Below, piece by piece: positions 1 to 8,634 of a DNA stretch of 8,634 nt; position 1 is the stretch's first letter; each line of letters begins with the position of its first letter. Location: the NCBI GenBank assembly GCA_945483525.1, contig CALYRV010000076.1, forward strand, positions 1-8,634, written 5' to 3'. A program made the position numbers and the translations under genes. This DNA comes from an uncultured Verrucomicrobiota bacterium. GTDB lineage: Bacteria; Verrucomicrobiota; Kiritimatiellia; RFP12; UBA1067. Below the pieces are notes generated by a model. That model did not search any database and was not told where the DNA came from. It was given only the letters and a program-made list of their open reading frames with translations.

Positions 1-516
1 AAGTATATTCGCAACAACCCGGCGCGGGCGCTTTGGAAACGGAACAACCCCGATATGTTTGCCTGCCGTCAGCGGTTCCGCCACCCGGTTCTCGACCCTT
101 CGCTTCCCTGGACCGCCTGCGGCGACTTGACCTTGCTTGGTAACCCATTTATGGTCGCCGTTTCGCTGACGCGTAAGAAAACGCTCGCCGAGCATGAGCC
201 GGAGATTGCCGCGCTCGTCGAGAAGGCCAAACAGGGCTGGATCGTCGTCTGCGGCTTTCTCTCGCCCGGCGAGAAGGAGCTCCAGCGTCGCCTTCGGGCT
301 GAGTCCAATACGCGCTGGATCAAAACGATGGCCCAGGGCCTCCCGCCGCGTTTCGACCCCACGGTCGAAGACTCGCGCTATCTCGCCGAGCATCGCCAGC
401 TGATGCTCAGCGCCCTGCCGATCGGCGCGCCATTCGATTGGAGTGCTTGTCATACAATGAACGACCACGCTGCGGCCATGTGCCAGAGGGCGCGCGGGGA
501 GGAGCGTGGCGATTGA
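1..516 (+). CDS. IS200-like/REP-associated Y1 transposase, C-terminal part (5' end outside window)
   Basis: The reading frame is open from base 1 to the TGA at 514-516, giving 171 residues with no start in view; the ATG at 55 is internal. The first residues read KYIRNNPARALWK, closely matching the 'YIxNNPVRAGL' segment at the end of the catalytic domain of Y1 (HUH) REP-associated tyrosine transposases. The HUH motif and catalytic Tyr should lie upstream, outside the window. The remaining ~130 residues are an extension with a Rossmann-like pattern (LLGNPFMVAVSLTR, a helix, then WIVVCGFLSPGEKEL), which loosely recalls DprA/LOG-type folds and which I associate from memory with transposases of the PVC group. 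These enzymes mobilise or process short palindromic repeats through single-stranded DNA. The gene ends 36 bp before the CARF operon on the same strand. Family assignment is good from the N-terminal motif; the function of the extension is unknown. Confidence 0.72.
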   Translation, partial: KYIRNNPARALWKRNNPDMFACRQRFRHPVLDPSLPWTACGDLTLLGNPFMVAVSLTRKKTLAEHEPEIAALVEKAKQGWIVVCGFLSPGEKELQRRLRAESNTRWIKTMAQGLPPRFDPTVEDSRYLAEHRQLMLSALPIGAPFDWSACHTMNDHAAAMCQRARGEERGD

Positions 517-552: not shown

Positions 553-1716
553 ATGAAAGAACTTAAATTTGATGTCGTGGTTCATCTGGCGGGTGAGCAG
601 ATTGTCCCTAATTACATGGCCTTGAAATTGAGCGAGGCCGGACAGCATATCATATTGACTACGAGTCGTACCAAAAAACAGATTGATTCGCTTCGGCGCA
701 TGTTTAAGGACAAAGAATGCGGATTCCTTCGTCACGTCGAAGTTCTGCCGACGGATTATAATGATGTGCTCACCAAGCTGAATGCGATCGGTGAGTTGCA
801 AGGACGGAAGGTTGGCGTGAACGTGACCGGAGGAACCAAGCCGATGTCAGTCGCCGCTTTAGACTTCTGTCGCAAGAATGCGTTCGTGCCATTCTATATC
901 GACACCCAGACCAAGACAGTGTCCTTCTTTGCGGAACCATATCGGAAAATCAAGATGCCGAAGGTTTTTGACAGTGTTGATGAGTTCTTTGATCTCAGTG
1001 GTTTCTCGGTCACTTCTACGGGCAAGAAGGCGGAGGACATATCCGATTCCAGAACGGAGCTGATTAAAGCATTCTGGGGAGAGAGAGATCGTGTTCGCCG
1101 TTCAATTGCACAATTCAACGAAGCGACAGAAATAAAGTATCAAAGGCAAACGAATCTGCCAGAGTGTTTCCGAAGTGCGGTTGCAGATATCCTGCGCATT
1201 TCTGGCAAGAAGGGACTGTCGGTTGCCTCGGCCTGGGAGCGGGTGTTTCCTCCAGGGAAATCGGACTGGCGGCTGGCTGCCCGTTTTGGTGCTGGCGAGT
1301 GGTTTGAAGAGTGGACGCTTCTCCAGTTTGCGAAGAGTAAAATCGCGGAACAATTCATCGATCTTCGATCCGGTGTAACGCTTTCGTTTGCCGGTGATAG
1401 AAATCAGCGGGACGCTCAGGAGATTGATGTCGCATTCACTGATGGTTATACGTTGACACTTCTGGAATGCAAAGCGGGCCGAGTGACGCAAGAGCACATT
1501 CAAAAGCTGGAGAACATTACGCGTCAAATTGGCGGCGCGATGGGACGTGGGATTCTTTGCGCGATTAATTATCAATATGATGACGATGTAGTTGTTCAGC
1601 GTGTTAAGAATGGGAATATCGCCCTGGTGACGGGTGATAAGCCGTTGCGTATGTTGCCTAATCGTTATCTTGAGATAAAGCCGAAGAAATGCTATCAGTC
1701 GGAAAGCGATTATTGA
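553..1716 (+). CDS. card1: Card1/Can2-family CARF nuclease (DUF1887-like)
   Basis: This 387-residue protein has the two-domain plan of Card1/Can2, nucleases activated by cyclic tetra-adenylate from type III CRISPR Cas10. Residues 1-140 form the CARF sensor: strand DVVVHLAGEQIVPNYMALK (7-25), strand HIILTTSRT (32-40), and the ligand-loop motif NVTGGTKPMSVAAL (90-103), which closely matches the family signature. Residues ~155-235 are a helical linker. Residues ~245-340 form a PD-(D/E)XK nuclease: GEWFEEW (248-254), QEIDVAF with D292, and LLECKAG with E305 and K307, so the E/D/ExK catalytic set appears intact. Length is typical of the family. Characterised members cut single-stranded DNA or RNA, or nick supercoiled DNA, when ligand is bound. 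The gene is AT-richer than the helicase genes downstream. It is the first gene of the operon, with a strong SD at 541-549. Family assignment is firm; the actual ligand and substrate are inferred. Confidence 0.9.
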   Translation: MKELKFDVVVHLAGEQIVPNYMALKLSEAGQHIILTTSRTKKQIDSLRRMFKDKECGFLRHVEVLPTDYNDVLTKLNAIGELQGRKVGVNVTGGTKPMSVAALDFCRKNAFVPFYIDTQTKTVSFFAEPYRKIKMPKVFDSVDEFFDLSGFSVTSTGKKAEDISDSRTELIKAFWGERDRVRRSIAQFNEATEIKYQRQTNLPECFRSAVADILRISGKKGLSVASAWERVFPPGKSDWRLAARFGAGEWFEEWTLLQFAKSKIAEQFIDLRSGVTLSFAGDRNQRDAQEIDVAFTDGYTLTLLECKAGRVTQEHIQKLENITRQIGGAMGRGILCAINYQYDDDVVVQRVKNGNIALVTGDKPLRMLPNRYLEIKPKKCYQSESDY

Positions 1717-1726
1717 GGTAGTTGTC

Positions 1727-2326
1727 ATGACCCCTACAGAATTCAAATCGATTGTCGCCACCGAAGGGAGACCGCAGGAGGAGCTCGCGGCCCTTTACGA
1801 GCGAGAGGTGTTTCCTCAGGCATTGGCGAGGATGCGGGAGTTCGCTGCTGGTGCGATGAAATTCGACATCCTTTATCTCACCGCCGGTACACAACCGTTT
1901 TCGCAAGCGCTCAGCATTGCAGCGACGCCGGCGGAGAAGGTCGTCTTCATAGCCACGGATGATCCGAAGTGCCAGGAAAGCCTGCGTCGGGCGATTGAGC
2001 TTGCGGGGCTTGCGGAATCGCAATGCGAAATACACACCTTCCCCGAGCCGTTCTCCGTCGAAGACATGACGAAGGAGATCTACTTCCATGCCACAACTTG
2101 CGGCAAGGACCATCTCGCCGCCGACATTACGTCGGGACGCAAGGTGATGTCGGCCGCTCTGTCGTCTATCGCCAGCGAATTGGAGATTCAGCAGTTCTAC
2201 CTGCATGCAGAATTCTTGCGCGGCAGTTTTGCCGTGAATGAACGGCGGATGCGCGTGCCGAGCGTCGCTGCGCTCGTACGCTATCTTGAGTCGGAAGATG
2301 CGGATGCCGCGAACGGGGAGGTGTGA
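1727..2326 (+). CDS. Stand-alone CARF-domain protein
   Basis: This 199-residue protein has a CARF-like Rossmann core and no visible effector domain. After a helical N-terminus (1-43) come strand 1 and its ligand loop, FDILYLTAGTQPFSQAL (46-62), strand KVVFIATDD (71-79), a helix to ~95, strand CEIHTFPEPF (100-109), and ADITSGRKVMSAAL (132-145). The last segment is the counterpart of NVTGGTKPMSVAAL in the preceding Card1-like protein. A further strand, IQQFYLHAEFL (154-164), and a short helical tail follow. No HEPN RxxxxH, PD-(D/E)XK, HTH or membrane segment is seen. It starts 10 nt after the upstream stop, with GAGGT at 1715-1719 as SD, and ends 2 nt before the helicase start, so it is translationally coupled to both. 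It could be a ligand-sensing subunit for the helicase, a ring nuclease that destroys cyclic oligoadenylate, or a regulator; the sequence does not decide. The CARF call is good and the role open. Confidence 0.75.
   Translation: MTPTEFKSIVATEGRPQEELAALYEREVFPQALARMREFAAGAMKFDILYLTAGTQPFSQALSIAATPAEKVVFIATDDPKCQESLRRAIELAGLAESQCEIHTFPEPFSVEDMTKEIYFHATTCGKDHLAADITSGRKVMSAALSSIASELEIQQFYLHAEFLRGSFAVNERRMRVPSVAALVRYLESEDADAANGEV
2315..2321 (+). promoter_or_regulatory. Shine-Dalgarno deciding the start of the first helicase
   Basis: GGGGAGG ends 7 nt before the ATG at 2329, an ideal distance. An alternative in-frame GTG at 2323 lies only 1 nt downstream of this motif, too close to be served by it. 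ATG 2329 is therefore preferred. The GTG start would add two residues and overlap the upstream stop by 4 nt. Confidence 0.65.
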
Positions 2327-2328
2327 CG

Positions 2329-4233
2329 ATGTTCCCCTTTAAGTCCTATCGCGACGCCGTTGTTGCGCTTTCTGATTCGCGCCGTTTTTCGGTGGAGACC
2401 GAAGTGCTTGACTTCGAGTGTGATCCTGACGATCCAGGAATGATTCGTTTTTCCGTCAAGTTCCTTGGGCAATGTGATAAATCGGCGCTTGAAGATGGTA
2501 CGGCAAGACAGGAAGGGGATGAGCATTCCTTCAGGGGCGAGATTGTCAATGTTGATGTAGCGCTCGGCATTGTGCTGGTCAAGGCGTCTGAATCTGCCAG
2601 CCCAGATCCGTCACATCGCTTGCTCCTTGAACCGGCGAATTACCTTAAGAAGCTTCGTGAGTTCGCGGAACAGTGTGCCTCGACGCATAATGAAGAAAAC
2701 GAGTCGCGCTATGTGGGATTAGGAGACGGTCTTCTCCGTGGCGGACGGAGATTGGCCGATGGTGATTTGGGTCTAAACGAAATGCCCTGTCCAGAATATC
2801 TTCGCGCATCGCAGCATCAGGCCGTCATGATGGCGATGCGTAAAGAGCTTTCCTTCGTCTGGGGACCGCCGGGGACCGGCAAAAGTTATACGCTCGGGCA
2901 CATTGCCGCCAGATTCATCGAACAAGGCAAGCGGGTCTTGCTTATCTCGAATACAAACGCGGCGGTGGACGTGGCGACATTTGCCGTCGATGACGCTTGC
3001 GCACGGTGCGGTTGGCCTTTGAAGGCTGGCGATCTGATTCGCTATGCGCGTGTTCTTGCACGTCCCGATGGTTATAAGGATCGTCCGCATCTTCTTGAAT
3101 TCACAAAGTTGCTTCAGCGTTTCGCCATTCGGGAGAGAGAGCTTGTTGCGAAGGTGCGGGTGTTGCAGGAAAGGATTGCAACGCCGCCTGCTGGTTCAGG
3201 CGATGCGTCGGATCTGAATTTCGATCTCGCCGCCATGATGGTTGAGCTGAAGTCGATCGGCGATGACCGACGGATGGAAATAGCGCAACTTCTTAAAGAC
3301 GCGAAGATCGTCACGGCGACATTGACCAGCGCCATGTATAATGGCTTTGTATCGTCCGGATCGTTTGACGTCGTTCTTGTTGACGAGGCGTCGGTGATGT
3401 CGCTGGCTGTCTGGCCTTATCTGCTTCATCGTTTTCGCCCTGATATGGCAAGATCGAAATTCGTCATCGCGGGTGACCCGATGCAGCTTCTTCCGGTTGT
3501 TGGGGGAAAACTGGATGACAAGGTGGCGTATTGGTTTGAAAATAATATCTATACGTACCTGGGCATGAGCGGATATGCCGGAATCCAACCTTATATGAAT
3601 GCTGGTGTGGTTACGCTTCTGACGGAGCAGACGCGTATGCGCGCGGAAATCTGCAAGGTCGTGAGCGATCGTTTCTACGGCGGTCGATTGACGGGTGATC
3701 GAATGGATGAAACGAAATCATGGTCCTCCGCTTCGGGAATTCCCAACGGACAAATCGTCTTGCTTGATCCCGGCGGCATCCAGCCGTATTCTCCACGAAG
3801 CCGATTCTCGCGCGGGCCAATCAAGAATACGAATGTTAACTCGGCCTTGATGGTCGAGAATCTGGTCCGGCGGTTGGCCGTTGAGGTACCGGTGCTTGGC
3901 GAGCCGCTTGAGATTCTGGTGATTTCGCCGTTCACTAATCAGGTTCGCTATCTCTATGAACGGCGCCTTAAGGCGTTGGCTCACCTTGGCAATCTGCGAA
4001 TCGAGACTACGACCGTTCATCGCAGTCAGGGTTCTGAGGCTGATGTCGTATTTTTGGATCTGGTTGATGCGTCGGCTTGGTTTTTGAATCATCCTGATGC
4101 ATATCATCTGTGGTGTGTAGCCTGTTCTCGGGCGCGGCGACAGCTCTTTGTCCTGGCGGATGAACAGGCGCTGCGCGTGGGCCAGCACTCGGAGCCTCTT
4201 TTCGCTGCGCAGACATTCACGAGATTGGCATAG
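2329..4233 (+). CDS. UPF1/DNA2-like superfamily 1 helicase
   Basis: A 634-residue DNA/RNA helicase of the SF1B UPF1/DNA2/SMUBP2 type (AAA_11/AAA_12 domains), which couples ATP hydrolysis to unwinding or translocation. Residues 1-150 are a beta-rich N-terminal region, possibly an OB-like barrel, without the Cys/His domain of UPF1. The motifs appear in order: SQHQAVMMAM Q-motif (~161-170), FVWGPPGTGKSYT Walker A (176-188), ISNTNAAVD motif Ia (206-214), a helical 1B-like insertion (~250-325), VLVDEAS Walker B (349-355), IAGDPMQLLPV motif III (380-390), LLTEQTRMR motif IV (430-438), TVHRSQGSEADVVFLDL motif V (562-578) and VACSRARRQLFVL motif VI (597-609). All key residues are present, so it should be active. 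No nuclease domain is seen, unlike DNA2. It sits 2 nt downstream of the CARF gene and 17 nt upstream of a second helicase. Family is firm; the partner and substrate are inferred from context. Confidence 0.9.
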   Translation: MFPFKSYRDAVVALSDSRRFSVETEVLDFECDPDDPGMIRFSVKFLGQCDKSALEDGTARQEGDEHSFRGEIVNVDVALGIVLVKASESASPDPSHRLLLEPANYLKKLREFAEQCASTHNEENESRYVGLGDGLLRGGRRLADGDLGLNEMPCPEYLRASQHQAVMMAMRKELSFVWGPPGTGKSYTLGHIAARFIEQGKRVLLISNTNAAVDVATFAVDDACARCGWPLKAGDLIRYARVLARPDGYKDRPHLLEFTKLLQRFAIRERELVAKVRVLQERIATPPAGSGDASDLNFDLAAMMVELKSIGDDRRMEIAQLLKDAKIVTATLTSAMYNGFVSSGSFDVVLVDEASVMSLAVWPYLLHRFRPDMARSKFVIAGDPMQLLPVVGGKLDDKVAYWFENNIYTYLGMSGYAGIQPYMNAGVVTLLTEQTRMRAEICKVVSDRFYGGRLTGDRMDETKSWSSASGIPNGQIVLLDPGGIQPYSPRSRFSRGPIKNTNVNSALMVENLVRRLAVEVPVLGEPLEILVISPFTNQVRYLYERRLKALAHLGNLRIETTTVHRSQGSEADVVFLDLVDASAWFLNHPDAYHLWCVACSRARRQLFVLADEQALRVGQHSEPLFAAQTFTRLA

Positions 4234-4250
4234 CCGAAGGAGGATAGTGA

Positions 4251-6338
4251 ATGGCGGAGGAATTGACTAAAGGTGGAGATCCAGCAAAGGCGATTCTTTC
4301 GCAGATTGCCGATGGCGTGCGCGTTGTCGTTATCCGTGGCGCCGCCGGTACGGGTAAGACGACTTTGATCGGACGGCTCATCCCCGAGTTGGAGAAGCTC
4401 CGTTATAACGTGTTGCTGCTTGCGCCGACCGGGCGTGCCGCGAAGATGATCCAGCTTCGCACAGGGCATCCTGCCAGCACGATTCACTCCGCTATCTATC
4501 AGATCGACGAGAAGCCGAAGGAAGGCAAGGCCGAGCATGGCGACCTTCGCTGGGTGTTCCCGATCAAGCGCGAAAAGACGGCACGTACCTGCTTTATCGT
4601 CGACGAGGCGTCCATGGTAGGTTCTGCCTTGCAGAACGACAGCGTTCTGCAGTTCGGGACAGGGTCGCTGCTGCAGGATCTTGTCGGCTATTCTGACGTG
4701 GAACTTCTGACTTCGGAAAACGTCGTCGTTTTCGTGGGCGATCCCTATCAGCTGCCGCCTGTCAAGGAGAAGGCTGGGGATCCGCCGGCGCTTTCAGAAG
4801 ATCATCTTTCGGGATTGACCGGCCGCGAGGTCATGGTGGTCGAACTGACGGAGGTTCATCGGCAGGGCCGGGAGAGCGGAATTTTCGCCGAGGCCAATCG
4901 CCTTCGTTCGCAAATCGCCTATCGTCTGTTCTGGGAGTTCTGCTTCCGGGAGCATGATGACATTCGACGAGTGGAGGAGGATTCGCTGGAGCAGATTTAT
5001 CATCCGGAGCGGGATCTCAACGAGAAGATGCTGATCGCCTATACCAACGAGCGCGTGTGGGAGTTGAATGGGCGTGTGCGAAAGATGCTCGGGCGCACTT
5101 CGGCGTTGCCCGGGTCGGGCGAGCGGCTCCTCAGTTTGCGAAATACGTCTGTCGGGGTAGGCGGCGAGCGCGAGGCGCGGTTCATGAACGGCGATTTTCT
5201 GCAGGTGATCTCGGCGGACGCGGAGAATCTGGTGACGCTGGACGGCTTTTATCGTCCGAAGGGGAAGGACAAGGCCTTGCATTACGAATTCACCTTCTGC
5301 CGGATGACCATGGCGTGGCTTTACGACGACGGACAGCCGGACGCCGAGGTGTGGGTGAATGTGACGCCGATCCTCAGCTCGGAATACCGAGAGAATCCGG
5401 AGTACGCTTCGATTGCGCTCTATGTGGCGGTGGTGGAACGCATCCGGGCAAAGTTTGGTCTTGGCTATGGCGCAGAGGACGAGGAGACTCTGCGTGATAA
5501 ACTGAAGCAAAGCCAGTTCTATCATGCGCCGTGGGTGACATTCGGCTACGCCATAACCGGACACAAGTCTCAGGGTGGAGAATGGAACGAAGTCTGGGTG
5601 GATTATCGCTACCAGCAGAACCGCATGACCGAAGAATACTTCCGCTGGATGTACACGGTGACTACGCGTGCGAAGAAAATTCTCTTCACGCTGGCACCGC
5701 CGCGGCTGGACGATCTCGCTGACGCGCTGGAGCGGGGACTCAAGCGGTTGGAGTCGGATGAATCGGCGACGCCTGGGGCGATGGCGGTTGCTCCGGCTGG
5801 CGCGTCGCTTTCGTTGCAGACGATACTGGCGCGTCACGGTTACACGATCGGCGAGACTGTTCGACGTCCGTATGCGATTCATCTGCGCCTTGCCCGGGAG
5901 GCCGATCCGTTTGCCGAGACGGGGACGCTTGATCTCGACTACAACGGGAAGAACGTGATCTCGTATGTGCGGCTGGCGTTTGCCGGGGCGAGCGATGCGC
6001 TCGGCGCGGATGTCGCGGCGCTCAAGGGACGGAAGATGGAGTCGGTGTTTCCGGAAACGACGGTGGGAGCCGCGACGGCGGCGAAACCGAAGGTCGAGGT
6101 CGTTGAATCTCAGGAACGACTTCGTGACCGCCTTCTGACGGCGGCGGAGAAGGCGGGGATCCGCGTGACGGGCATGAAGTCGATGACGGTTCATCAGCTG
6201 AGGGTGGAGTTCGCCTCTGAACTTGGTGAAGGGTATGTTGATTTCTACATTGACGGCAAGGGACGGGTATCGGAAATGGGTTCGATGACGATTGGCGCGG
6301 CGAGTCTTAAGCGGCTGTTGGAGGGGCTGTCGAAATGA
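4251..6338 (+). CDS. RecD/Pif1-like superfamily 1 helicase with duplicated C-terminal module
   Basis: A 695-residue SF1B helicase. AAA_30-type motor motifs are IRGAAGTGKTTLI (28-40, Walker A), LLAPTGRAAK (56-65, Ia), STIHSAI (76-82), FIVDEASMV (115-123, Walker B), VFVGDPYQLPPV (160-171, III) and LTEVHRQ (199-205, IV). After a long 2B-like region, a UvrD_C_2-type motif V, YAITGHKSQGGEWNEVWVDY (433-452), and motif VI YTVTTRAKKILFTL (468-481) follow. All catalytic motifs are intact. RecD2, Dda and Pif1 share this layout, moving 5'-3' on single-stranded DNA. Residues ~510-695 are an extension I do not recognise, in which 525-584 and 631-690 look like two divergent copies of one alpha/beta module. 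SD AAGGAGG (4237-4243) is 7 nt before the ATG. The stop overlaps the next start (ATGA, 6335-6338). GC content is visibly higher than in the first operon gene. Helicase call is firm; the extension is probably nucleic-acid or partner binding. Confidence 0.9.
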   Translation: MAEELTKGGDPAKAILSQIADGVRVVVIRGAAGTGKTTLIGRLIPELEKLRYNVLLLAPTGRAAKMIQLRTGHPASTIHSAIYQIDEKPKEGKAEHGDLRWVFPIKREKTARTCFIVDEASMVGSALQNDSVLQFGTGSLLQDLVGYSDVELLTSENVVVFVGDPYQLPPVKEKAGDPPALSEDHLSGLTGREVMVVELTEVHRQGRESGIFAEANRLRSQIAYRLFWEFCFREHDDIRRVEEDSLEQIYHPERDLNEKMLIAYTNERVWELNGRVRKMLGRTSALPGSGERLLSLRNTSVGVGGEREARFMNGDFLQVISADAENLVTLDGFYRPKGKDKALHYEFTFCRMTMAWLYDDGQPDAEVWVNVTPILSSEYRENPEYASIALYVAVVERIRAKFGLGYGAEDEETLRDKLKQSQFYHAPWVTFGYAITGHKSQGGEWNEVWVDYRYQQNRMTEEYFRWMYTVTTRAKKILFTLAPPRLDDLADALERGLKRLESDESATPGAMAVAPAGASLSLQTILARHGYTIGETVRRPYAIHLRLAREADPFAETGTLDLDYNGKNVISYVRLAFAGASDALGADVAALKGRKMESVFPETTVGAATAAKPKVEVVESQERLRDRLLTAAEKAGIRVTGMKSMTVHQLRVEFASELGEGYVDFYIDGKGRVSEMGSMTIGAASLKRLLEGLSK

Positions 6339-7573
6339 CACCGGAACGACAGAAGCTTGAAACTCAGCTGAAATCGTTTGAGGCAGCCAAGAAGGCCGCC
6401 AAGGGGATTGATGATGAGGAATTCGTCAAAAGCGCGCGCGGTATAATATTGACGATTCGGGAGATCTCGAAATTGCCAGAGGACAACTCGCTGACGGATT
6501 TTCAGGTGGGTTCGTACTGTTGGGCGCTTTACGCCATCGCGGCGAAATCTTCGGACGGCGAGGAGTCCCGTCAGACGCTTGCGCGATTGGTCTGCGCCTA
6601 TCGGAAGAAGATTGACAATCCGCAGTTCTGGGGAACGCCGAAGAACGCGGATTTCGGGCGGACGCTGTTCAATTCGATCGTCCTGCAGCTTTATCAGACT
6701 ACGAAGCATGCCAACGATAGCGCGGCGGAGACGCTGCTCAAGAAGGTTGGGGAAACTTATCTTGAAATACTTGATCTTCGGGCGGCGGCATTTCTGGATG
6801 ATGCCGCCTTTCATCGGGAACCGGTCACTGAGTCTCAACGGGCGGCGATGGAAAAGAAACCCGGCAAGAAGATCAAGATGAAGGCCTGGCCTTCGATCGC
6901 GGAAAAGGCTTTCGGCCTGATGAATCGCATTCTCAAGGTATTGCCGGAGGTGAAGCCATCATCGGGGCTTGTGGGTTTCCTGGTAAAGAACTGCAGGCGA
7001 GGGGACTGGCTCGCTTATTATAGTGCCAAGGCGCTGATTCGTGTCGGTGAATATGCGCAGGCGCAAGGGTTTCTGATGGAGATGCTACATAAGAAGCCGA
7101 AGGAAGGGTGGCTTTGGTCGGATCTGGCCGATGCGTGTCGGAAGGATTATGGGGTTGCGGTGTCATGCCTCGCAAAGGCGTTGCGGTGCCCTAATTATGA
7201 CCCGCAGATCGCCGAAGGCATGGCGAAGAAGGAGCGGGCTCTCATGGGGAAACTGCTTCAGACGCTGGGGAGAGGTCCGGCACCAGTGGATCTGAAGGAC
7301 GCGTTTTACGATCAGGAGTGCAAGAAGGCCGAGGTCTTTGTATTTGGCAAGGAAGCGGCAGCGCAAGCGCTGTCCGTCACGTTTGAGGGGAAGTTGATTA
7401 AACACAGTGGCAATGCGTTCGGTTTTGTGAAGTATGCGAAACTCGGTAGCGTCTTCATCCCGCCGCGCTTTGCCGAGAAGCACGCTGATGGCGAATTTGT
7501 GAAGGGGAAAGCGCAGAAAAAGGAGGATAAGAAAAAGAAAAAGCTAAGTTGGTGTATGATTTCTGCTCTTTGA
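6335..7573 (+). CDS. TPR-like helical protein with C-terminal cold-shock/S1-like OB domain
   Basis: A 412-residue basic protein. Residues 1-330 are almost entirely helical. The clearest repeat-like stretch is 220-300 (RRGDWLAYYSAKALIRVGEY, then GWLWSDLADACRKDYGVAVSCLAKAL), typical of TPR-like helix pairs. Residues ~345-395 read as a small OB fold: VTFEGKLIKHSGNAFGFVKY (348-367), then GSVFIPPRFA (371-380). 'AFGFV' and 'VFIPP' occupy the places of the RNP1 and RNP2 motifs of cold-shock proteins (KGFGFI, VFVHF). A lysine-rich stretch (395-403) and LSWCMISAL end the protein. From memory, TPR plus S1/CSD-like architectures have been described in the 'TOTE' prokaryotic conflict systems; I could not check this. 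The start is the ATG inside the ATGA overlap with the helicase gene, with SD GGAGGGG at 6320-6326. It is probably an RNA/ssDNA-binding adaptor for the helicases. OB call is moderate-to-good; partner role is inferred. Confidence 0.7.
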   Translation: MTPERQKLETQLKSFEAAKKAAKGIDDEEFVKSARGIILTIREISKLPEDNSLTDFQVGSYCWALYAIAAKSSDGEESRQTLARLVCAYRKKIDNPQFWGTPKNADFGRTLFNSIVLQLYQTTKHANDSAAETLLKKVGETYLEILDLRAAAFLDDAAFHREPVTESQRAAMEKKPGKKIKMKAWPSIAEKAFGLMNRILKVLPEVKPSSGLVGFLVKNCRRGDWLAYYSAKALIRVGEYAQAQGFLMEMLHKKPKEGWLWSDLADACRKDYGVAVSCLAKALRCPNYDPQIAEGMAKKERALMGKLLQTLGRGPAPVDLKDAFYDQECKKAEVFVFGKEAAAQALSVTFEGKLIKHSGNAFGFVKYAKLGSVFIPPRFAEKHADGEFVKGKAQKKEDKKKKKLSWCMISAL

Positions 7574-7590
7574 CAATCGATGTTATGCTG

Positions 7591-7638
7591 TCTTGAAGGG
7601 AGCCGCTTTAGGCAATAAGGCGGGGTCTCCCTTCAAGA
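7591..7638 (+). terminator. Long stem-loop after the operon (possible terminator or structured leader RNA)
   Basis: TCTTGAAGGGAG (7591-7602) is a perfect 12-bp match to the reverse complement at 7627-7638. Inside it, CCGCTTTA (7603-7610) pairs with TAAGGCGG (7616-7623), with one G-U pair. The loop is GGCAA (7611-7615), and a 3-nt bulge (7624-7626) separates the two helices. About 20 base pairs make this far stronger than chance. It begins 18 nt after the last operon stop, as a terminator would, but no T-run follows, so a classical Rho-independent terminator is not shown. An mRNA 3'-end stabiliser or a leader element are alternatives. Confidence 0.6.
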
Positions 7639-7656
7639 ATGAAGGTTTGACTATCG

Positions 7657-7681
7657 TTCCAAGGGAGTTTCCCCCTTGGAA
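7657..7681 (+). other. Second hairpin in the leader region
   Basis: TTCCAAGGG (7657-7665) pairs perfectly with CCCTTGGAA (7673-7681) around a 7-nt loop. It lies 18 nt after the first hairpin, and its 5' arm shares the AAGGGAG core with the first hairpin's 5' arm (AAGGGAG at 7596-7602 and 7661-7667). No T-run follows. It could be part of a bipartite terminator or a protein-binding site. Confidence 0.5.
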
Positions 7682-7716
7682 TATGCGAATTTGTCCGCGA
7701 ATAAAGCAATGAAATC

Positions 7717-7725
7717 TGGTACAAT
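7717..7725 (+). promoter_or_regulatory. Extended -10 promoter element, candidate for array transcription
   Basis: TGG followed by TACAAT (7720-7725) matches an extended -10 (TGn-TATAAT, 5 of 6). No -35 hexamer stands at the usual distance: TTGTCC at 7691 is 23 nt away. Extended -10 promoters can do without one. Transcription would start near 7732, about 100 nt before repeat 1. Confidence 0.4.
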
Positions 7726-7797
7726 ATTAACGGCCTTGAAGGGTGTCAAGAAAAGATACGTAATTGCTACTTGCTTCAGAATCACTAAATATGGTGC

Positions 7798-7826
7798 TTG
7801 AAATCGGTAGCTTTTGCGTTGAAAAT
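7798..7826 (+). promoter_or_regulatory. Weak sigma70-like pair adjacent to repeat 1
   Basis: TTGAAA (7798-7803; 5 of 6 to TTGACA) and GAAAAT (7821-7826; 4 of 6 to TATAAT) are separated by 17 nt. Transcription would start at about the first base of repeat 1. This is an alternative to the extended -10 element upstream. Matches of this quality occur by chance in AT-rich DNA. Confidence 0.25.
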
Positions 7827-7834
7827 AGATGACA

Positions 7835-8634
7835 GTCCGAAAAGACCATTGAGCCGAAAGGCTATTGAGACGTCCCAGGGAGGGCAAGGGACGAGTGAGC
7901 GGTCGCTGTATCTGTCCGAAAAGACCATTGAGCCGAAAGGCTATTGAGACAGGAGTCAAGTCATACATTAACGACTCGACCCAAGCCGGGTCCGAAAAGA
8001 CCATTGAGCCGAAAGGCTATTGAGACCGCCATTCGCCTTTACCATGATTACAAATGCAGACGCTTGTCCGAAAAGACCATTGAGCCGAAAGGCTATTGAG
8101 ACGTGCCGTCGAATTCGAGCGTGCGCGTAGCGAGGTCGACGAGTCCGAAAAGACCATTGAGCCGAAAGGCTATTGAGACAGCCAGCACCCGGCAGTTGAG
8201 ATTCCGCCGAGGATTTTGGGTCCGAAAAGACCATTGAGCCGAAAGGCTATTGAGACCTTGATTGAATCACAGAAGAACAGTGCTTTTGACGACTTGTGTC
8301 CGAAAAGACCATTGAGCCGAAAGGCTATTGAGACGCGACCCTCGCGACGGGAGACCACGACGGACTCCTCATCCCGTCCGAAAAGACCATTGAGCCGAAA
8401 GGCTATTGAGACTACTGGAGTCCGTTGACTTTCGCTGCCATCGTTGTGCTGTCCGAAAAGACCATTGAGCCGAAAGGCTATTGAGACGGCTCGGGGGTGC
8501 AGAGGTTGCCCTCGACTACCACGGTGTCCGTCCGAAAAGACCATTGAGCCGAAAGGCTATTGAGACGTGTATCACCATTGGCGACACGGTCTGTGAGAAC
8601 GCGCCGTCCGAAAAGACCATTGAGCCGAAAGGCT
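7835..8634 (+). CRISPR. CRISPR array: 10 full repeats plus one cut by the window edge, 10 spacers
   Basis: The 37-bp repeat starts GTCCGAAAAGACC and ends GGCTATTGAGAC. Copies start at 7835, 7914, 7990, 8066, 8143, 8220, 8298, 8376, 8451, 8530 and 8606; the last is cut after 29 bases. All copies are identical. Spacers are 42, 39, 39, 40, 40, 41, 41, 38, 42 and 39 bp, all different. The 3' end ATTGAGAC matches the usual 8-nt crRNA 5' tag (ATTGAAAC/ATTGAGAC) of Cas6-processed type I and III arrays. This sets the direction as + and puts the leader on the left. The repeat can form AGCC-GAAA-GGCT, a 4-bp hairpin with a GNRA loop, 8 nt before its 3' end, the expected Cas6 cleavage position. Repeat and spacer lengths fit type III, and the CARF genes next door agree. 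The array continues past the right edge. No cas gene of the core machinery is in view. Confidence 0.97.

Follow-up and report, generated by a model that had tools for sequence, protein, structure and literature searches.

Layout of the operon and the CRISPR array

Analysis of the open reading frames showed that the window (the whole stretch of 8,634 nt that was analysed) carried five genes, all on the + strand between positions 553 and 7573, followed by a CRISPR array. The features were as follows:

Gene 1, 553..1716, + strand: 387 aa; CARF4-type CARF domain and PD-(D/E)xK nuclease, Card1/Can2-like
Gene 2, 1727..2326, + strand: 199 aa; predicted stand-alone CARF domain of the Csm6 type, with a helical N-terminal part and lacking HEPN
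Gene 3, 2323..4233 (GTG start, 636 aa) or 2329..4233 (ATG start, 634 aa), + strand: IGHMBP2/UPF1-like SF1 helicase
Gene 4, 4251..6338, + strand: 695 aa; RecD2/Pif1-like SF1 helicase with a C-terminal TBP-like domain (PDC-M16A, TOTE)
Gene 5, 6335..7573, + strand: 412 aa; TPR/DUF7017 and S1/cold-shock-type OB protein (PDC-M16B, TOTE)
Operon-array interval, 7574..7834, + strand: 261 nt; candidate leader, provided that the array reads from left to right
CRISPR array, 7835..8634, + strand: 37-nt repeat GTCCGAAAAGACCATTGAGCCGAAAGGCTATTGAGAC, 10 full copies and 1 partial copy; runs off the window

Genes 1 and 2 were separated by 10 nt and genes 3 and 4 by 17 nt, while genes 4 and 5 overlapped by 4 nt. 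The spacing between genes 2 and 3 was a 2-nt gap with the ATG start of gene 3 and a 4-nt overlap with the GTG start, and the motif GGGGAGG preceded both candidate starts. The original prediction of five co-directional genes with such short gaps and one 4-nt overlap, ending 261 nt before an array, was borne out by the ORF coordinates and the array positions.

The full repeats started at 7835, 7914, 7990, 8066, 8143, 8220, 8298, 8376, 8451 and 8530, with the partial repeat at 8606, and the spacers were 38-42 nt long. The array adjoined the operon 261 nt downstream, which is the CRISPR linkage looked for in a type III ancillary module, and positions 7574-7834 would be a candidate leader, provided that the array reads from left to right. 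No cas10 or any other cas gene was present within the window, and the Rfam scan gave no match. No protospacer match was obtained for the array among phages, or for the cores of 3 of the 10 spacers among viral contigs.

Protein families of the five genes

The gene 1 protein matched PF23400 (CARF_Card1, 48.5 bits) and PF09002 (Card1_endonuc, 37.9 bits), both above the Pfam cut-off, as well as the PADLOC profile CARF4--CARF_PDDEXK (197 bits). Alignment to Card1 (6wxw) and Can2 (7bdv) showed an intact catalytic triad (D292, E305 and K307), the position of which was common to 8 of 8 aligned CARF nucleases, and the CARF motif TGGTK started at residue 92. Gene 1 has the same CARF domain, Card1_endonuc domain and D...ExK site as Card1 and Can2, the type III CARF PD-(D/E)xK nucleases, but it is encoded in an operon with helicases and its ligand and substrate are predictions. 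By analogy with these enzymes, it would be activated by cyclic oligoadenylate.

For gene 2, the match to PF23400 (20.0 bits) was under the cut-off of 24.6, and a CARF fold was supported by a confident structure model. The PADLOC profile and structure comparison showed a CARF domain of the Csm6 type. Csm6 is a CARF-HEPN RNase, whereas the gene 2 model, at 199 aa, stopped where the CARF half of TtCsm6 stops, with the HEPN RNase domain absent. Named relatives were found as weak matches in 2 of 387 Verrucomicrobiota genomes and in 1 of 4 further genomes, with none found in viral contigs.

The gene 3 protein carried PF13086 and PF13087 with Walker A and DEAS motifs. Its structure model (pLDDT 87.9) had IGHMBP2, SETX and UPF1 as top Foldseek matches, and its nearest four homologues were 634, 634, 636 and 632 aa long. 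Its best PADLOC match was the helicase region of MkoA (147.5 bits), the SF1 helicase of Mokosh. Mokosh is defined by an MkoA-type helicase together with a PLD nuclease partner or domain. Gene 3 (636 aa) resembles only the helicase region, while PLD and kinase are absent from the window; no PLD domain was found by Pfam in the six window proteins scanned, so the locus was not assigned to Mokosh. The gene 3 profile matched 234 of 387 Verrucomicrobiota genomes at E 0.001, mostly weakly and partially. Its distant relatives in this phylum had no CARF gene or gene 4 alongside in 7 of 7 stretches, which were the best-scoring loci and in some cases short.

Gene 4 matched PADLOC PDC-M16A (376 bits) and, marginally, PF22721 (TBP-TOTE, 28.6 bits against a cut-off of 27); it carried Walker A and DEAS motifs and had RecD2, Dda and Pif1 as PDB relatives. 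Gene 5 matched PF22707 (S1CSD-TOTE-2, 52.4 bits) and PF22860 (DUF7017, 54.7 bits), both above the cut-off, PADLOC PDC-M16B (52.4 bits) and, below the cut-off of 23.5, TPR_14 (20.6 bits). Genes 4 and 5 are the known TOTE pair, the PADLOC candidate PDC-M16A/B. TOTE stands for TPR, OB, TBP, Effector conflict systems, according to the passage of PMC12458937 that cites Aravind et al. 2022. The window shares with these systems the TBP-helicase and the TPR-like/S1-cold-shock OB protein, overlapping by 4 nt. It differs in having a separate, putatively CARF-gated nuclease, whereas NERD is fused to many gene 4 relatives, and in its additional second CARF protein and UPF1-like helicase. The gene 1 nuclease lies upstream in the same direction and the same operon, with its catalytic residues present, and may act as the TOTE effector. 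TALON, which is described in a section of PMC12458937 as YprA helicase, NERD, TPR-CSD and TBP, has its TPR-CSD and TBP components in common with the window operon; the YprA helicase is absent here and a CARF nuclease stands in place of NERD. PF22721 also matched an RNase HIII-like protein, and the TBP-like domain of RNase HIII binds DNA-RNA hybrids according to a section of PMC3710099.

A plasmid or phage origin was rejected, as plasmids gave no near match. The relatives of gene 4 on plasmids had <60% identity, and of their 221 records 14 reached 80% coverage of the query, while 0 of 20 records did so for gene 3. Weak relatives of gene 4 (n=47) and gene 3 (n=12) occurred in viral contigs.

Recurrence of the genes and linkage to type III CRISPR

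In protein listings, relatives of genes 2 and 3 on metagenomic contigs had 7 contig sizes in common, against 0.18 expected by chance, and those of genes 2, 3 and 4 had two (7338 and 18597 nt); this linkage is indirect, being read from equal contig sizes. The company of genes 2 and 3 on equal-sized contigs spanned 33-98% (gene 3) and 44-94% (gene 2) divergence. A size coincidence between genes 3 and 4 at 2283 nt leaves no room for both genes, so chance size matches do occur. Four gene 2 contigs (14-16 kb) and two close gene 4 contigs (13.7 and 14.8 kb) had no same-sized partner.

An uncultured Ulvibacter, which belongs to another phylum than the source of the window, had all five kinds of gene in a single co-directional run (locus L022). 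This locus has in addition a wHTH-like gene and a PLD gene; its helicase is MkoA-like (385 bits), with the PLD gene one gene further on. Its CARF-only protein was weakly like gene 2 (BLASTP E 0.002, 22%; profile 17.9 bits). No Cas10 (PF22335 at E 0.001) was found in the genome, which may be incomplete, and no array in the locus. An accident of a single genome was rejected because genes 2 and 3, and in part gene 4, share contig sizes elsewhere and the five kinds recur in Ulvibacter. The predicted set, made up of one nuclease with a CARF domain, a further CARF protein, two SF1 helicases of different kinds and a TPR-OB protein, is present in the window and recurs, in part on equal-sized contigs and with all five kinds in Ulvibacter.

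Among gene 4 relatives, a gene 5-like gene adjoined 52 of 62 full-length examples; other partners were a reverse transcriptase (L173) and, in the Pfam lists, fused NERD nucleases. CARF genes flanked the helicase in 6 of 80 related loci (L021, L022, L034, L049, L053 and L071), as detected with a small query panel that included CARFs from five of those six loci. A Card1-like or other CARF effector was also near a related helicase in L183, beyond the 80, and none was recognised in six loci inspected from a family-level draw. Cas10 was beside or close to related helicases in L004, L070 and L049; among the 50 genomes that contain related helicase loci, 14 had a Cas10 match over the cut-off. Apart from Cas10, CARF and Csx20, the Cas/RAMP names in L049, L070, L178, L179 and L183 were read from translations, unscored. 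The linkage of TOTE-type helicases to type III loci spanned Bacteroidota and Proteobacteria.

Seven of the 14 Bacteroidota genomes with TBP-TOTE in a gene 4-like protein had Cas10, and in 5 of those 7 Cas10 and TBP-TOTE were on the same contig, 5.8-25 kb apart. The excess of Cas10 in the TBP genomes (7/14 vs 14/59) had P 0.06. Card1-CARF was found in 5/14 TBP genomes vs 14/381 (Fisher P 2e-4), or 2/13 vs 12/381 (P 0.07) with matches above the Pfam cut-off only and the centre genome excluded; the four remaining Card1-CARF matches among the TBP genomes were on different contigs from the TBP match. Two genomes (G583 and G651) had been removed from 16 because the fetched stretch held no gene 4-like protein, the G583 protein being RNase HIII-like by eye. 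With both retained, the values were 9/16 vs 14/59 for Cas10 (P 0.016) and 7/16 vs 12/379 for Card1-CARF (P 2e-6).

The repeats of arrays near related helicases mostly followed the design GTC...ATTNNGAC, as does the repeat of the window, and ATTGAGAC itself was present in repeats of L021, L034, L042 and L053. The repeats of L190 departed from this design, and a tandem match in L019 was not counted as an array because the second array finder did not return it. Locus L071 has the order CARF-adenosine deaminase, 192-aa gene, gene 4-like, gene 5-like and array; its helicase/TPR-OB pair and 37-nt array match those of the window in order and repeat orientation. The distance from pair to array is 184 nt there vs 261 nt in the window, and the effector is a CARF-deaminase, not a CARF nuclease with a CARF protein and a UPF1-like helicase.

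Interpretation of the operon

The reading we favour, at somewhat better than even probability, is that the operon represents a variant of TOTE that is gated by cyclic oligoadenylate and serves type III CRISPR. The results suggest a machine that, once triggered by the alarm molecule, would unwind and cut the DNA or RNA of an invader. A Cas10 complex, encoded off this contig, would meet invader RNA through its crRNA and produce a cyclic oligoadenylate, most likely cA4. This ligand would bind the CARF dimer of gene 1 and switch on the PD-(D/E)xK nuclease, as expected from Card1/Can2, whose catalytic residues gene 1 retains. Gene 2, the sensor half of Csm6 without the RNase half, may bind the same ligand, acting either as a ring nuclease or sponge that lowers its level or as a relay of the signal to gene 3; translational coupling and recurrence on equal-sized contigs point to a partnership of the two. 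Genes 3 and 4, which we take to be SF1B-type motors with the 5'-3' polarity of their families, would open the nucleic acid of the invader. Gene 4, through its TBP-like domain, and gene 5, through its OB domain, may hold the motors on RNA:DNA hybrids and single strands; structures of this kind presumably arise where a transcribed invader comes under type III attack, and the single strands would be fed to the nuclease.

The idea that the five genes form one system is partly supported. Of the two outcomes that the original prediction named as counting against it, a helicase and TPR trio that usually occurs without CARF genes was borne out in part, with CARF near 6 of 80 helicase loci and gene 3 relatives alone in 7 of 7 stretches; adjacency of the five in this genome only was not, in view of the equal-sized contigs and Ulvibacter. 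For cas10 in genomes with relatives, the picture was mixed, with 14 of 50 related-helicase genomes carrying it and none found in the Ulvibacter genome. It is possible, although on balance improbable, that two separate modules share one transcript and act independently, the CARF pair (genes 1 and 2) and the TOTE pair (genes 4 and 5), with gene 3 in either; they would be neighbours because defence genes cluster. The gene 4-5 pair does occur alone or with other partners at most loci, the reverse transcriptase and fused NERD nucleases being among these partners, and the distant gene 3 relatives stood without CARF or gene 4 in all 7 stretches. However, genes 2 and 3, not just genes 1 and 2, stay together over wide divergence on equal-sized contigs, the five kinds recur in another phylum, and the TOTE helicase repeatedly neighbours CARF effectors or Cas10.

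An operon that is CARF-gated but independent of CRISPR, with a ligand that another enzyme or the infection itself supplies and an array that is just a neighbour, would accommodate Ulvibacter, where the five kinds occur without a PF22335 match or an array in the locus; CARF nucleases in standalone genes and other systems are also described in a section of PMC3710099. We consider it unlikely, as many related helicase pairs adjoin type III arrays and Cas10, and the window's own repeat shares the design of the related loci. In other organisms, helicases of the UPF1, IGHMBP2 and SETX kind act on cellular RNA and R-loops, which they process, and the fold match of gene 3 to this group would fit an operon for housekeeping or regulation, through R-loop or transcript processing, that plays no part in defence. 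A Card1-type nuclease with an intact triad, a Csm6-type CARF, candidate-defence families for genes 4 and 5, the CRISPR array alongside and a patchy spread (gene 2 weakly in two of 387 Verrucomicrobiota genomes) make such a role very improbable.

As genes 4 and 5 were already described as TOTE/PDC-M16, the predicted fusion of a CARF module with a helicase-based anti-invader system is nearer the mark than the new effector system offered beside it. No description of CARF joined to TOTE was found in the open-access literature, and in the sole paper with the terms TOTE, 'conflict system' and CARF, the last was confined, in the portions available, to the reference list. Most type III CARF effectors known to date work singly, as diffusing enzymes that cut or modify whatever they encounter. 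It is doubtful, though conceivable, that the operon represents a distinct type III effector class, processive and not diffusive, in which a CARF nuclease and a separate CARF adaptor gate two different SF1 motors. These motors would seek out R-loops or RNA:DNA hybrids where invader DNA is transcribed, strip them and pass single strands to the nuclease.

If the favoured TOTE variant is real, the coupling of a CARF nuclease to a TBP/OB pair and two helicases would imply an alarm able to recruit motors, and TOTE, so far a sequence-defined conflict system, would gain a testable trigger and become part of CRISPR signalling. The association between TOTE-type helicases and type III loci in Bacteroidota and Proteobacteria is useful on its own, since many unannotated pairs of the RecD-like and TPR-OB kind gain a predicted function from it.

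The operon and its CRISPR array

Genes 1-5 are a real operon: five plus-strand ORFs that span 553-7573 of the window, separated by successive gaps of 10, 2, 17 and -4 nt (an alternative start codon turns the gap of 2 into a 4-nt overlap), with a purine-rich Shine-Dalgarno-like stretch visible by eye upstream of each. A CRISPR array starts 261 nt past the operon and continues beyond the window edge. The ORF positions, spacings and array distance of the original prediction were all re-found. An open-ended partial ORF (window 1-516, +) stops 36 nt upstream of gene 1 on the same strand; it had no match in Pfam, PADLOC or NCBIfam, and its start presumably resembles the end of a REP-associated transposase.

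Repeats near related helicases were mostly 35-37 nt long and ended in ATTGAGAC, ATTAAGAC or ATTACGAC, while those of locus L190 departed from this common design. The window repeat ends in ATTGAGAC, the same as at loci L021, L034, L042 and L053, and starts with GTCCGAA, like the repeat of L191 in Bacteroidota genome G444, where that array sits within a Cas10 cluster. The 5' tag of a crRNA derives from the final 8 nt of repeats of this kind; with the ATTGAGAC end as the tag source, the array would read left to right, in the same direction as the operon. No protospacers were found when the window array was compared with phages and the cores of 3 of its 10 spacers with viral contigs. At L174, L181, L191 and L192 (G439 and G444), gene 4-5 pairs were flanked on both sides by several same-repeat arrays and located within large CRISPR regions.

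Recurrence of the gene set

The genome scan by gene 4 alignment took the best 80 of more than 80 existing loci, with identities of 36% or less. One of them, L022 from an uncultured Ulvibacter and thus from a second phylum, carried seven genes on the same strand, whose neighbours overlapped by 1-17 nt or were separated by gaps of 6 and 131 nt.

Genes of the Ulvibacter locus L022
SF1 helicase with three S1 domains (MkoA family, 385 bits)
wHTH-like protein
PLD protein
CARF-only protein, 192 aa (top match Csm6-type CARF1 family, same as gene 2)
Card1-type CARF nuclease
RecD-TBP helicase
TPR-OB protein

All five kinds of gene in the window were present, arranged differently and accompanied by two further genes. 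The likeness of gene 2 to the L022 CARF-only protein was weak (22% over 125 aa, E 0.002), and no Cas10 was found in this Ulvibacter genome, which may be incomplete.

Relatives of genes 2, 3 and 4 were searched among 5.8 billion proteins, with entries being clusters that carry the size of the longest contig without gene context. Gene 2 had 29 relatives, gene 3 had 290 among the candidates scored (best 120 of 290 listed) and gene 4 had 7259 (best 120 of 7259 listed). Among the matches listed, relatives of genes 2 and 3 had seven longest-contig sizes in common (6871, 7338, 3827, 11594, 18597, 3729 and 4236 nt) versus 0.18 expected by chance, and two of these (7338 and 18597 nt) were common to relatives of all three genes. 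The 18597-nt contig, grouped by matching size among the matches listed, showed 57, 39 and 56% identity to genes 2, 3 and 4. Shared sizes are an indirect sign that genes 2-3(-4) recur together, and one hard to get by chance. Gene-2 contigs of 14811, 16312, 14566 and 15215 nt and close gene-4 contigs of 13718 and 14833 nt had no size-matched partner among the matches listed.

Protein P0083 (535 aa, 7992-nt contig) combined UvrD_C_2, DUF7017 and S1CSD-TOTE-2, a gene 4 end fused to gene 5, either natural or assembly-made. At L199, a 98-aa open frame (9557-9853, -) that closely matches the gene 3 end (131 bits) looks like a gene 3 remnant; the remainder of such a gene was absent nearby.

Linkage of the gene 4-5 pair to type III loci

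A gene-5-like protein lay downstream of 52 of 62 full-length gene-4 relatives and of none of the 18 short ones without the C-terminal part, by a profile seeded with 29 of those same neighbours. CARF occurred in the flanks of 6 of the 80 loci (L021, L022, L034, L049, L053 and L071), a lower bound for the remaining loci because the query panel held CARFs of five of these six. L071 has the layout of the window with a different effector: upstream of the pair of helicase and TPR-OB genes lie a CARF-adenosine deaminase (PADLOC CARF5--CARF_ADA) and a gene of 192 aa, and 184 nt past the pair an array begins. Card1-type proteins and arrays were both present in L034 and L053. Cas10 adjoined the helicase in L004, lay 2.8 kb downstream of it in L070 and, with Card1-type and Csx1-type proteins, upstream of a short helicase in L049 (the L070 and L049 sites were assigned through contig coordinates). 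This short RecD-like helicase (L049 9944-11413), which lacks both the TBP part and a TPR-OB partner, comes immediately after the Csx1-type gene and a small gene, with an array after it. Cas10 was over cut-off in 14 of 50 hand-picked genomes of the 80, and in all six tested genomes whose helicase has an array nearby (L021, L034, L042, L049, L053 and L071); L038, whose genome was outside the Cas10-tested set, has an array too.

The TBP-TOTE domain of gene 4 was found in 16 of 395 Bacteroidota genomes, of which 14 were kept after removal of two whose match was not gene-4-like. Cas10 was over cut-off in 7/14 of these versus 14/59 TBP-free genomes (P 0.056), and five of the seven carried both on one contig (about 2% expected per genome), at distances of 5.8 (G494), 5.8 (G486), 15 (G404), 22 (G444) and 25 kb (G439). 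Card1-CARF was present in 5/14 versus 14/381 (P 2e-4), or 2/13 versus 12/381 (P 0.07) with only matches over cut-offs and the centre genome left out; among the TBP-TOTE genomes it adjoined the gene 4-5 pair in G405 only. The linkage of gene-4-like helicases to type III loci is therefore firm, and the genome-level excess of Cas10 and Card1-CARF with TBP-TOTE is suggestive.

In a draw from the family of the centre genome, the domain was found in 8 of 299 genomes, and no CARF was recognised in the six of these that were inspected (L020, L040, L051, and, with genes 1 and 2 alone as queries, L193, L194 and L195). By eye, the pair in L040 and L193 is preceded by small proteins of receiver-like type and by further genes without names, and the TOTE sensor slot seems to vary between loci. 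Another TOTE pair partner, two genes upstream of the pair in L173, was a reverse transcriptase of a candidate defence kind (12045-13406, -; RT-Protease_XI, 344 bits).

Proposed mode of action

The gene content, order, catalytic motifs, folds and recurrence of the operon were established. The idea that the five genes act as one system held in part: the set recurs in L022 and the pair is linked to type III loci, against which stands the presence of CARF near only 6 of 80 loci. We somewhat favour the operon being a TOTE variant that is gated by cOA and linked to type III. No description of CARF joined with TOTE was found in the open-access full-text literature, a scope that leaves out most subscription papers.

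The ligand, the targets and a complex of the operon proteins are predictions. The TBP-TOTE model also matches an RNase HIII-like protein, and according to PMC3710099 RNase HIII uses its TBP-like domain to bind DNA-RNA hybrids. Together with the UPF1/SETX-like helicase, the RecD-like helicase and the OB protein, this suggests that the predicted substrate is RNA:DNA hybrids or R-loops. Card1-type nucleases cleave single strands, and both helicase motors would feed such strands to the gene 1 nuclease. Hybrid or R-loop targeting would suit immunity against transcribed invaders.
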